Shown: positions 22,951-31,639 of the stretch, one piece after another
How positions within the stretch are numbered: the first letter of the stretch is position 1
How the letters are laid out: each line of letters opens with the position of its first letter
From: Halomicrobium zhouii
GTDB taxonomy: Archaea; Halobacteriota; Halobacteria; Halobacteriales; Haloarculaceae
Length of the DNA: 64,000 bases
Assembly (NCBI RefSeq): GCF_900114435.1
Contig: NZ_FOZK01000003.1
Coordinates: 558,001 to 622,000, forward strand
Reading direction: 5' to 3'
Notes under the pieces: model-generated
What the model was told of the DNA's origin: nothing
Seen by the model: only the letters and a program-made list of their open reading frames with translations
Databases searched by the model: none
Program-made: the position numbers and the translations under genes

Positions 22951-23125
22951 GTTACCTGTTATCACACACCGCCAGTATATACGTCCTTCCCTAAACGGCC
23001 ATGAACCGGTTGGGAACGGCTGAATATCCCTAATACAATTGAAGGTCACGAAGGCAGCCCACCCCAGTGAGTCTCGGTACCTCGTCACAATAACGCACAC
23101 AAATCCCCGGCCCGACGTTCGACGC

Positions 23126-23839
23126 ATGCCGGACGCCTTCGGCCGCGCGATCCGCGACTGGGACCGGGACGAGCAGAACGAGCCGCTGCTGCAGCGCGAC
23201 GGGGAGCAAGTCCTCGAACACCCCATCGAGGCGTTCTACTTCGGCGAGTTCGACGCCGAGAGCGACTACGGCTCCTGGCTCGAATTGTGGCTGGACGGGC
23301 CACTGCTGGATCTGGGTGCCGGCGCCGGCCGGGACGCGCTTCACTTTCAGGACCGCTTCGAGACGGTGGCTATCGAGGTCAGCGACCACCTCGTCGAGAC
23401 GATGGCGTCCCGGGGCGTCGAGGACGCTCGGCGTGGGAACATGTTCGAACTCCGCGAGCAGTTCGAGGCAGGACGGTTCCAGTCGGCCCTCGCCCTCGGG
23501 ACCCAGCTGTGCCTCGCGGGTTCCATGCAGGGCCTCCGGACGTTCCTCGCCGACCTCGCCCACGTCACGACGCCCGACGCCACCGCCGTCGTTCACAGCT
23601 ACGACCCAGGTGCCGACGGCATCGAGGACCTGCTCGGATTTCGGGACGATCCGACGCCGGGCCTCGCTCATCGCGTTCAGTGGTTCGAGTACGAGGACGA
23701 GGTGGACGAGGCGCTCTACTTCAGACTGTTCAGCCCCGCCAAATTGCGCGAGGCAGCAGACGCTACTGGCTGGAAAGTGTGCGAGGTACGACGACCGTTC
23801 GACCCGGTCAGTTACCGGGCGGCGTTGGAAAAACGATAG
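23126..23839 (+). CDS. Class I SAM-dependent methyltransferase
   Basis: 237 residues. SAM motif I is LLDLGAGAGRDALHF (about residues 57-71), followed by an acidic motif II region (ETVAIEVSDHLVETM) and a motif IV region (FQSALALGTQLCLAG). The fold is that of small-molecule methyltransferases; the substrate is unknown. I chose ATG at 23126 because residues upstream are basic and unlike the family. The 3' end is followed by the hairpin array that separates it from the convergent cdc48 gene. Confidence 0.85.
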   Translation: MPDAFGRAIRDWDRDEQNEPLLQRDGEQVLEHPIEAFYFGEFDAESDYGSWLELWLDGPLLDLGAGAGRDALHFQDRFETVAIEVSDHLVETMASRGVEDARRGNMFELREQFEAGRFQSALALGTQLCLAGSMQGLRTFLADLAHVTTPDATAVVHSYDPGADGIEDLLGFRDDPTPGLAHRVQWFEYEDEVDEALYFRLFSPAKLREAADATGWKVCEVRRPFDPVSYRAALEKR

Positions 23840-23877: not shown

Positions 23878-24110
23878 GCGACCGAAGGTCGCCGAAAGAT
23901 GCGCAGCATCTTTCGAGCCTTCGCTCACTCCGTTCGCGAAGACGCGGTTTCACTTCTCGCGAGGCGAAGCCGAGCGAGAAGGACGTTGGTAGCGTAGATT
24001 TTTACGACGAGAGGTGCCCACAGGGGCGCGAAGCGCCCCGAGGACACCCGAGGTGGTTCGAAAGAGCGCGGAGCGCTCTTTCGTCATCACGAGAGAGCGA
24101 AGCTCTCTCG
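23878..24110. repeat. Array of GNA-triloop hairpins between convergent genes
   Basis: Seven stem-loops lie in 233 bases and six of them have a three-base GNA loop closed by C-G. They are 23878-23892 (6-bp stem, GAA), 23893-23915 (10 bp, GCA), 23953-23981 (8 bp plus tandem G.A mismatches plus 3 bp, GAA), 24023-24039 (7 bp, GAA), 24059-24083 (11 bp, GGA) and 24090-24110 (9 bp, GAA). The seventh (23919-23941) has an 11-base loop. A 7-bp outer stem pairs 23862-23868 with 23947-23953. Stem sequences differ, so this is not a simple duplication. GNA triloops are known for exceptional DNA hairpin stability. Confidence 0.85.
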
Positions 24111-24119
24111 AACGAAAGT

Positions 24120-24124
24120 AAAAA
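24120..24124 (-). terminator. T-run after cdc48
   Basis: Five T residues on the minus strand begin five bases after the cdc48 stop, immediately before the hairpin array. Archaeal polymerase stops at such T-runs, so this is the likely end of the DUF7127-cdc48 message. The array beyond it would catch read-through. Confidence 0.5.
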
Positions 24125-24128
24125 GGGA

Positions 24129-26408
24129 CTACTGGAACGTCCGGCCGACCGTCTCCTCGTCGCCGATACCGGCCTCGTTGTGGTCGAAGCGCTTCTCGAT
24201 CTCCTCGTAGCGCTCGCGGACCTCCTCGTCGACGCTGGGGCCGACCTCGTCGAGGGCGTGCTCGAAGTGGTCCATCGTGATACGAACGTTCGAGACCGTG
24301 TCACCGATCTCCTCGGGGTCGACGCTGTTGACGAACTCGCGGGTCGCGGCCATGGAGGCCTCGCGGGTGACGGCCTCGATGTCCGCGCCGACGTAGCCCT
24401 CGGTGCGACGGGCGAGCTGGTCGAGGTCGACGCCGTCGGCCAGGGGCTTGTTCCGGGTGTGGACCTGGAAGATGGCCCTGCGGGCCTCCTCGTCCGGCAC
24501 CGGCACGTGGACGTGACGGTCCAGGCGACCGGGGCGGATGAGCGCCGAGTCGATGAGGTCGGGTCGGTTGGTCGTGGCGACCACGACGACGTCCTGCATC
24601 TCTTCGAGGCCGTCGAGCTCCGTCAGGAGCTGGGAGACGACGCGTTCGCCGACGCCCGAGTCCGTGCTCGTGCCACCACGTTCGGCGGCGATGGAGTCGA
24701 TCTCGTCGAAGAAGATCACGGTCGGGGCGTTCTCGCGGGCCTTCTCGAAGACCTCGCGGACGCCCTTCTCGGACTCGCCGACGAACTTGTTCAGCAGTTC
24801 GGGCCCCTTCACGGAGATGAAGTTCGACTGGGCCTCGTTGGCGACGGCCTTGGCCAGGAGCGTCTTCCCGGTCCCCGGCGGGCCGTACAGCAGGACGCCC
24901 TTGGCGGCGTTGAGGTCCATCGCCTCGAACACGTCGGGGTACTCGAGTGGCCACTGGATCGTCTCGCGGAGGCGTTCCTTGGTGTCCTCCAGGCCACCGA
25001 CGTCCTCCCAGGAGACGTCCGGGACCTCGACGAACACTTCGCGGAGCGCCGAGGGCGAGATGCCCTTCATCGCGTCCTTGAAGTCGTCCTCGCTGACCTC
25101 CAGCCGTTCCAGCACCTCGGCGTCTATCTCGTCCGATTCGAGGTCGAGTTCGGGCCGGATGCGACGGAGCGCGTTCATCGCGCTCTCTTTCGTCAGCTGT
25201 TCGAGGTCGGCGCCGACGAAGCCGTGGGTGCTCTCGGCGTACGCGTCGAGGTCGATCCCCTCGGCCAGAGGCATCCCGCGGGTGTGGACCTGCAGGACTT
25301 CCTTGCGGCCCTCCTTGTCCGGGACGCCGATCTCGATCTCGCGGTCGAAGCGGCCACCGCGGCGCAGCGCCGGGTCGATGGCGTCGACGCGATTGGTGGC
25401 GCCGATGACGATGACCTGTCCGCGCTCCTCGAGGCCGTCCATCAGCGAGAGCAGCTGTGCGACGACGCGGCGTTCCACGTCGCCCTGGGTCTCGCCGCGC
25501 TTGGGCGCGATGGAGTCGATCTCGTCGATGAAGACGATGGCGGGGGCGTTCTCCTCGGCCTCCTCGAAGACCTCGCGGAGCTGCTCTTCGGACTCCCCGT
25601 AGTACTTCGACATGATCTCCGGGCCGCTGATGGTCGTGAAGTACGCGTCGATCTCGTTGGCGACGGCCTTGGCCATCAGCGTCTTCCCGGTACCCGGCGG
25701 ACCGTGGAGGAGCACGCCCTTCGGCGGCTCGATGCCGAGCTGCTGGAACAGCTCGGGGTGGCGCATCGGGAGCTCGATCATCTCGCGGACCTGTTCGAGT
25801 TCGTCGTCGAGGCCACCGATGTCCTCGTATGCGACGTCGGGCGTCTCGCGGTCACCGCCCCCGCCACCGCGACCGGGGCCGCCGCTGATCTGCTCGGCGG
25901 GCTGTTCGGAGACCTCGATGTCGGTCTGGTCCGTGACGACGACCGTCCCCTCGGGTTCGGTCTCGGCGATCTTGAGGGGAATCTTCTGTCCGCTCATGCT
26001 CGAGAGCGGGCCGAGGCCGAAGCTCACGGGCACGGTCTGTCCCTGCGTGACGGCCTGGCCGCTGAGGTTGTTGCGGATCATCGGGCCGACGTTGCCCCGG
26101 ACGCGGAGGTTCTGGGGGAGGGCGACCGTCACGGCCTTGGCGACCTGGACGTCCGCCTTCTCGACGTTCACGTTGTCGTCGATGCCGACGTTGGCCTCCT
26201 GGCGGAGCTGGCCGTCGATGCGGACGACGCCCCGGCCCTCGTCCTCGGGGTAGCCGGGCCAGACGCGTGCGACGACGCGGTTCTCGCCGCCCTCGATGAC
26301 GATGTAGTCACCGTTCTCCAGGTCCATCTCGTTCATCGCGCCCCGGTCGATGGCGGCGAGCCCACGACCGGCGTCCTTCTGCTTGAGTGGTTTGACAGTG
26401 AGTTTCAT
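24129..26408 (-). CDS. cdc48: Cdc48/p97/VAT-type AAA+ ATPase
   Basis: 759 residues. The N-domain (about 1-190) with [14 protein letters not shown] is followed by a glycine-rich linker ([10 protein letters not shown]) and two AAA+ domains. D1 has [17 protein letters not shown] near residue 236 and D2 has [17 protein letters not shown] near residue 509; Walker B ([20 protein letters not shown]) and the arginine-finger region ([26 protein letters not shown]) are present in both. It unfolds proteins, probably feeding the proteasome. The start overlaps the upstream DUF7127-like stop by one base, so they are coupled. Confidence 0.97.
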
Positions 26409-26659
26409 TAGTGGGCCTCCTCGGAGTCGCTCGTCACTTCGACAGTGAGGACCCCGTTTTTGATAAACGCTTGCGCGTCGCCTGCAGGGAGCGCCAGGTC
26501 GTACTGGTCGGACCCGGAGACGACGATGGCCGTCTCGTCGACGACGTCGACGGAGGCGTCACCGGCGACGCCGAGGTCTGCCGCGAGTACTCTCGTACCG
26601 TCGTCGTACTCGAATCGGCGCACCGGCGCGTCGTCGACGAGCTGCTGGTTTCCATTCAT
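26408..26659 (-). CDS. DUF7127-like protein, Hsp20-type fold, coupled to cdc48
   Basis: 83 residues with the strand pattern of a small Hsp20/alpha-crystallin domain: [28 protein letters not shown] and [11 protein letters not shown]. The last stretch resembles the 'nGvL.i.v' end of Hsp20 proteins. It is very acidic and lacks the long C-terminal extension with an I-x-I motif. The family name DUF7127 is from memory. The gene precedes cdc48 with a TAATG overlap and shares its promoter, so it may be a Cdc48 adaptor or substrate-presenting chaperone (inference). Confidence 0.78.
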
Positions 26660-26684
26660 ACTAACCAATAGTAAACACCGAGAG

Positions 26685-26692
26685 TATTTAAA
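26685..26692 (-). promoter_or_regulatory. TATA box of the DUF7127-cdc48 operon
   Basis: TTTAAATA on the minus strand lies 26-33 bases upstream of the ATG at 26659, the standard spacing for a leaderless haloarchaeal transcript. The surrounding purine-rich GCGCAAAC just upstream could serve as the BRE. Confidence 0.7.
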
Positions 26693-26808
26693 GTTTGCGC
26701 CGCCGAACACCACCCGTTGTCGGGATCACGCGGAAGATGACTGAAAGCGGTTCACACCGATCGGTTCGACCGCCCGGCGCTTATCAGTGCTGCTTTCGAA
26801 CGACAGGT

Positions 26809-31500: not shown

Positions 31501-31639
31501 AGGACGCTGTCCCGTAAGGGTCCGCCGGTGAGCAATCGCGCCAGCGATTGCGAACCCTGGAAGTCGCAGCCCGCGCAGGGCCGACGGCCCGAGCAGGAAC
31601 GTCTTCGTCCGGTGAGCAATCGCGCCAGCGATTGCGAAC
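31501..31639 (+). repeat. Partial tRNA-Leu copy and 31-bp direct repeats
   Basis: 31501-31529 matches tRNA-Leu bases 31341-31369 at 27 of 29 positions, exactly 160 bases downstream; both differences are G to A. The match stops where the T-loop would begin, and a 31-bp sequence starting CCGGTGAGCAATCGC replaces it. That sequence recurs perfectly at 31609-31639. Each copy contains an 8-bp hairpin (GCAATCGC/GCGATTGC). Between the copies, 31557-31607 holds a further imperfect hairpin whose ends and centre recur beside tRNA-Glu. Confidence 0.8.

Follow-up and report, generated by a model that had tools for sequence, protein, structure and literature searches.

The six hairpins that lie between two convergent genes at positions 23878-24110 of the 64-kb window (the whole stretch of DNA analyzed, from the genome designated G000) are a mosaic of separate parts and comprise more than one element. 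The explanation that we favor as probable is that a bidirectional oligo-T terminator has been invaded here by R1, a short repeat whose spread would be non-autonomous and would act through hairpins, and whose stems would be kept paired by template switching. The sister genomes compared with G000 were G001, G002, G003, G004, and G006.

Hairpin 1 (23878-23892), identified from the sequence and by alignment to relatives, is a perfect GCGACC-GAA-GGTCGC stem-loop with a GAA triloop, and hairpin 2 (23893-23915) has a perfect 10-bp stem and a GCA triloop. Hairpin 3 (23953-23981) carries a GAA loop on an imperfect stem with 11 of 13 pairs, while hairpin 4 (24023-24039) is perfect, with a 7-bp stem and a GAA triloop. 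Hairpins 5 (24059-24083; 11-bp stem, GGA loop) and 6 (24090-24110; 9-bp stem, GAA loop), both perfect, are the first and second hairpins of R1. The sequence-only reading, which had reported six perfect or near-perfect hairpins sharing one C-GNA-G loop class, is borne out on both points: five stems are perfect, and the closing pair of all six is 5'-C...G-3'. C-G-closed GNA triloops are unusually stable in DNA, as in GCGAAGC mini-hairpins. Extraordinarily stable DNA mini-hairpins have been treated in general elsewhere (PMC10527192). The array is also non-random, as had been proposed: within a 290-bp region, five GNA triloop hairpins with stems of at least 6 bp were observed, whereas 2000 composition-matched dinucleotide shuffles gave none in 1981 runs and one in 19. 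Predicted DNA folding of the region lay well under that of shuffles on both strands (z = -5.8 and -6.9), and the 64-kb window held one cluster of at least three C-GNA-G hairpins per 300 bp, with none in five window shuffles.

Hairpins of this kind are also enriched beyond the array. In samples of 400-800 kb, C-GNA-G hairpins with stems of at least 8 bp numbered 27 for G000 (800 kb sampled) and 20 for G154 (400 kb sampled), while shuffled sequence yielded 0-3 per 400 kb. This excess of about 10-fold or more in two element-bearing genomes, mostly intergenic, agrees with the enrichment over shuffled sequence that had been anticipated. No such hairpin occurred in the samples of G030, a haloarchaeon free of R1, or of G315, which lies outside the order, and clusters of at least three in 300 bp were confined to G000 and G154, the shuffles, G030, and G315 having none. 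A run of N in G000_C2 inflates the triloop totals and leaves the GNA counts unaffected; the cluster counts are corrected for it. Adjacent hairpins are spaced 24-28 bp apart, and the C-GNA-G excess is partly R1 and partly a second double-hairpin family, R2. The expected enrichment at convergent gene ends held only for these hairpins in general, 9 of 19 intergenic ones in one genome lying at such ends, a lean that way. R1 itself had no such preference (18 of 70 sites versus a 24% background of non-coding sites), its site classes coming from a crude ORF caller of whose 26 'CDS' calls many are probably false.

The convergent genes said to flank the array were confirmed. Upstream, an ORF on the plus strand (23039-23839, stop at 23839) gives a weak methyltransferase-domain match (Pfam Methyltransf_23, E 1.7e-4, under the family cut-off), and downstream lies cdc48, an AAA ATPase gene on the minus strand (24129-26408, stop at 24129; Pfam CDC48_N, CDC48_2, and AAA). 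A small gene on the same strand directly upstream of cdc48 (26408-26713) matches DUF7127 (E 3.2e-10), and farther along the window a hairpin, GCAATCGC-GCCA-GCGATTGC, is present twice, at 31540 and 31624, 84 bp apart.

Two T5 tracts visible in the sequence are likely terminators, one for the plus-strand gene at 23999-24003 and one for cdc48 on the minus strand at 24120-24124 (A5 on the plus strand). Alignment and a repeat search delimit a terminator scaffold, GGTG-CCCACAG-hairpin 4-GAGGA-CACC (24013-24048), which together with TTTTTACG before it and GTAAAAA after it forms a local structure common to the window and sister genomes; its GGTG/CACC stem is GGTT/AACC in G004. Scaffold variants were found again between T5 and A5 tracts at further G000 loci, and the R1 insertion lies in a bidirectional oligo-T terminator, shared at genus level, of which hairpin 4 is a part. 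This terminator repeat, TTTTTCGAGGAG-GGTTCCCGCAG-hairpin-CGAGGAAACCCGACGAAGAAAAAGG, was seen at G000:C1:49795, 106619, and 179125 as well as at 23999-24124 of the window, and its GGTN/NACC stem shows paired changes.

In Haloferax, T stretches terminate transcription efficiently (95% in one test), and hairpins upstream of some stops also terminate (59% for the one tested; PMC7237163). At the cdc48 site, transcription would stop at the two T tracts. Each of these tracts precedes hairpins 4-6 in its own direction of transcription, and A tracts, not T, come next after the hairpins on both strands; hairpins 4-6 are therefore not hairpin-then-U terminators. The earlier suggestion of a bidirectional terminator thus survives for the T5 tracts on both strands and fails for hairpins 4-6 as its hairpin-then-U signals. 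Hairpins 1-3 are probably located in the 3' UTR of the upstream gene. The position aligned to hairpin 1 holds the GAA-loop hairpin GGCGCGC-GAA-GCGCGCC in G004 and a mismatched hairpin in G006, hairpin 2 is missing from the aligned site in both genomes, and a search pattern for repeats of hairpin 3 returned no copies.

Hairpins 5 and 6 belong to the 62-bp R1 copy at 24054-24115 (plus strand), which runs from TGGTTCGA to TCGAACGA, lies between ACCCGAGG and AAGTAAAAA, and is dispersed and missing at sister sites. R1 is a non-coding repeat, 54-70 bp long among its copies, with the plan GTGG-TT-hp1-TCATCA-hp2-AA-CGAC, in which two inverted hairpins each stand 2 nt from a GT(G/C)G foot; the terminal inverted repeats are complementary at 7 of 8 positions. 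When relatives were searched with the region, 24053-24118 recurred at many places in many genomes. G000 contains 22 strong copies and the sister genome G006 at least 30, and copies in one orientation share G-TGGTTCGA-hairpin-TCGTCATCACGA-hairpin-TCGAACGA-C with unlike stems. The unpaired linker TCATCA (24084-24089) is conserved in the alignment; the search patterns behind a set of 175 copies fixed the linker and feet and left the loops, and the stems past their first bases, free, so that the invariance of linker and feet is partly by construction. The sequence-only reading had taken different stems with a shared loop as a sign of selection and not of copying, and the six hairpins as one array element. 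Neither view was upheld: hairpins 5 and 6 form one of many copies of a repeat that is dispersed through the genome, inserted here beside terminator hairpin 4, which itself lies in a repeated module.

A covariance model built from 18 copies and applied at E ≤ 0.001, its E-values being rough, matched 254 of 293 Halobacteriales genomes and 78 of 87 genera; Halorubrum, Haloarcula, Natrinema, Halosimplex, and Haladaptatus are among the carriers. No R1 was detected at this threshold in at least 10 near-complete haloarchaea. Outside Halobacteriales, about 204 genomes of the same phylum gave no match, and all 42 matching genomes of a phylum-wide sample belonged to the order. R1 also occurs on 24 haloarchaeal plasmid records, in 22 of them without an annotated gene beneath the match. 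Viral spread was rejected, with no match in viral contigs by exact pattern search and none in the phage records searched.

Comparison of sister genomes revealed two clean insertions of R1. At the cdc48 site, G004 reads ...ACCCGAGG^AAGTAAAAAGG where the window carries R1 between ACCCGAGG and AAGTAAAAAGG; G006 likewise lacks the 62 bp, and no R1 module was seen in the corresponding intergenic region in G001, G002, and G003. At a second locus (L300 in G006), R1 sits in a palindrome at TCG^CTACGCTC that is uninterrupted in G000, G001, and G002. Target duplication is absent at both sites. A candidate third empty site (L288/L307) was rejected, since the terminator interior there is wholly different and replacement instead of insertion is possible.

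Non-redundant R1 sites numbered 75, with G before the element in 69 and C after it in 69, and with flanks matching G^CNNCG in 42; the window site, GAGG^AAGT, falls outside this main consensus. Palindromic targets are over-represented: inverted arms of at least 8 bp surround R1 at 14 of the 75 sites, against 4.6 expected and a maximum of 10 in 200 permutations that re-paired left and right flanks. At one locus (L140) a 17-bp arm flanking R1 doubles as a T-tract/A-tract terminator, and some copies lie inside apparent IS605-type end palindromes. At G000:C2:1186900-1187440 (L110), the palindrome that holds R1 adjoins an apparent tRNA gene (anticodon CAT), and partial tRNA-like 3' ends (GGATTTGAACC) are found around it.

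Stem pairing in R1 is preserved through change on both sides. The alignment analyzed has 141 distinct rows, which hold both reading directions and are partly redundant; 99.2% of its cells are paired and 463 show double changes, compared with 150 in shuffles. Where the search patterns did not constrain the pairs, double changes numbered 345, wobbles 8, and non-pairs 18; an RNA helix would be expected to show wobble intermediates, and these are nearly missing. The 175 copies contain 350 hairpins, of which 278 have triloops, all but one of these closed by C-G (277/278), and the loop kinds include GNA (131), its inverse TNC (96), and AAA or TTT (34). Exact inversion of the loop, with the same stem and similar flanks, was found in 31 R1 comparisons, which are comparisons and not independent events, and two R2 copies in G000 differ solely by GAA versus TTC.

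Homogenized arms and inverted spacers are established effects of template switching between inverted repeats, 3-bp GAA/TTC spacers in yeast being among those inverted (PMC8604942). Because this process yields both outcomes, two-sided paired change in R1 is not proof of a selected structure. We infer that R1 stem pairing arises from template switching, perhaps with added selection for hairpin stability; selection for pairing could be an alternative source of the perfect stems. The pairing points to maintenance at the DNA level, in single-strand hairpins or cruciforms, and not to an RNA terminator.

Rfam gave no match above the gathering score in the region, with chance-level matches only. Inspection led us to reject a C/D-box reading (GTGATGA, bottom strand), which has no D box and a variable context, and a hammerhead reading (TGATGA beside CGAAA), in which the CGARA base varies and the second core strand is absent; an attC-like integron site was rejected by inspection only, on an unfitting core motif. 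RNA folds include an alternative GTGGT/ATCAC pairing that is favored at L110, with the outer stem favored at L119; the outer stem hardly varies.

R2, TCAGA-hairpin-TCTGAYKGGCT-hairpin-GAACGYC, has variable paired stems and a sequence unrelated to R1; it is as widespread as R1, occurring in 133 of 146 genomes of Halobacteriales (53 of 56 genera), with copies at G000:C1:169877-169937 and G000:C2:514093-514154 and in many relatives. Six candidates (L049, L177, L246, L433, L434, and L438) that adjoin R1 or other hairpins may form a single-hairpin family, R3 (CCATGCGAAC-hairpin-GTGAGCAGA). A larger nested-palindrome repeat around R1, with ends GAAAGCCC/GGGCTTTC (or CAAAGGGG/GGGGCTTTGG) and GACTGAAAGGG, occurs at L098-L108 and L113-L118 of G000 and looks like a PATE. 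Four copies in G302 (L419-L422), with R1 inside, are near-identical over 100-200 bp, pointing to recent spread. In G163 (L423-L426), four copies have one identical 58-bp R1 core while their flanks, in the repeat around it, become dissimilar within about 10-20 bp; it looks as though the core had been homogenized independently of them. R1 moves within the larger repeat in several genomes, and the case for its own mobility therefore rests on the two clean empty sites.

A Y1 transposase (PF01797) was present in 13 of 18 R1-rich genomes and in 6 of 12 R1-free genomes, and the five R1-rich genomes with no PF01797 match (G080, G092, G097, G149, and G178) are near-complete. Y1 TnpA was rejected as the R1 mobilizer on these counts; R1 therefore does not currently depend on a canonical RAYT or IS200 TnpA, and it is possible that a Y1 transposase was lost after R1 spread.

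In the scenario that we favor, the T5-flanked bidirectional terminator around hairpin 4, between convergent genes, would have been invaded by R1, which would spread as a non-autonomous element through single-stranded or extruded hairpins and would enter palindromic sites near G^CNNCG without target duplication. Template switching between arms during replication would correct one arm from the other, which would explain why R1 stems stay perfect, and would sometimes invert the loop; C-GNA-G loops may prevail because they form the most stable DNA hairpins. It is unlikely, on balance, that R1 lacks independent mobility and is the conserved inner part of PATE-like or IS605-related repeats, spread elsewhere by palindrome recombination. 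The larger repeat does house most R1 copies and is common to the recent G302 copies, and composites of R1 and the terminator scaffold were found again at L109 and L297, but clean insertions occur in unrelated palindromes, the 75 flank contexts range over terminators, the tRNA-side palindrome, and IS605-type ends, and the identical cores of G163 lie within diverged flanks.

We regard as distinctly unlikely a host function at the DNA level, in which a cruciform, nucleoid-protein site, or topoisomerase site would be selected for C-GNA-G hairpins and mobility would be secondary. The regular pitch of 24-28 bp, the conserved linkers and feet, the limitation of the enrichment to element-bearing genomes among those sampled, and the architecture shared by the sequence-unrelated R1 and R2 would all suit such a function; presence at the same site nevertheless differs among sister species, at least 10 near-complete haloarchaea do without R1 (E ≤ 0.001), and no binding protein is known. 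The hairpins might instead be RNA signals, either a bidirectional intrinsic terminator or a 3'-UTR stabilizer, kept by selection for RNA folding. This accords with the convergent genes and the T5 on either strand, with hairpins 1-3 preceding the plus-strand T5, with the Haloferax hairpin that terminates ahead of a stop (59%, one tested; PMC7237163), and with a T5 or A5 tract adjoining 12 of the 75 non-redundant R1 sites. It is nonetheless improbable: hairpins 4-6 sit past the two T tracts, with A following on whichever strand is read, hardly any G.U intermediates occur, loops are inverted between strands, the majority of R1 copies lie away from convergent ends, and the terminator of the sister species lacks R1.

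Among described systems, the SMR-A elements of Haloquadratum walsbyi (HqIRS42, HqIRS43, and HqIRS55), whose mobilization was called 'enigmatic' (PMC3119063), appear to be the closest kind to R1. Both are short, non-coding, and multi-copy, with terminal inverted repeats, no mobilizer yet found, and no target duplication (in R1, at two clean empty sites), and both lie in palindromes, SMR-A chiefly in PATE/IS605 elements and R1 also in apparent IS605-type ends. SMR-A is, however, about 110 bp long and commonly more than 95% identical within a type, whereas R1 has 54-70 bp, freely varying stems, two hairpins, and an order-wide range; R1 is set apart from HqIRS42/43/55 by description, not by sequence. 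In bacterial REPs, which occur as mostly intergenic inverted doublets, a hairpin of 7-20 bp with a loop of 2-5 nt is preceded on its 5' side, at a distance of 0-2 nt, by GTAG or GTGG (PMC6006769). The first R1 hairpin fits this rule, its 9-11 bp stem lying 2 nt from GTGG, and the inverted layout resembles that of REPINs (BIMEs); the second foot is GTCG instead of GT(A/G)G, no Y1 transposase, the class to which RAYT (TnpA-REP) belongs, was matched in five high-copy genomes, R1 is archaeal, and stems vary fully within the one family. R1 may thus be filed as akin to SMR-A and REPINs and a member of neither.

Haloarchaeal PATE/IS605-type elements (PMC3119063) have near-terminal palindromes, and the larger repeat around many R1 copies resembles one, but R1 is an insert in such elements and is also found elsewhere. 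The T5 tracts around hairpin 4 on both strands match archaeal oligo-T terminators (PMC7237163), from which the site differs in having hairpins 4-6 past the T tracts; unlike an intrinsic terminator, it has no T tract directly 3' of these hairpins. A structured RNA family is set apart from R1 by the lack of an Rfam match and by the ratio of wobbles to double changes (8 versus 345). MITEs share terminal repeats with an autonomous transposon and often leave a target duplication; R1 left none at two sites. R2 often begins with CGTC-A-hairpin, like the CGTC-tagged REPs as the available part of their source presents them (PMC3733652), and differs in loop, tail, and host group, the hosts named in that part being bacterial. 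The element had been unfamiliar to the sequence-only reader and is apparently undescribed as such in the open-access literature; subscription journals and ISfinder may differ.

More tentatively, R1, R2, and perhaps R3 could belong to an order-wide class of hairpin-doublet elements, with at least the first two as members, that spread by an unrecognized, Y1-independent single-stranded DNA mechanism and whose C-GNA-G hairpins would evolve by repeated template switching, so that every copy would be a record of hairpin formation in vivo. If this picture is right, nearly every haloarchaeal genome would carry small elements that report the places and the frequency of DNA hairpin formation in vivo, and the spread of these elements would require an enzyme as yet undiscovered. 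They would be an archaeal counterpart to bacterial REPINs and would explain some of the palindromic sequence that lies unannotated between genes in haloarchaea. Paired stem changes alone would then not prove a selected RNA structure, and the puzzle of SMR-A mobilization, stated in 2011, would become testable through model elements in culturable genera.
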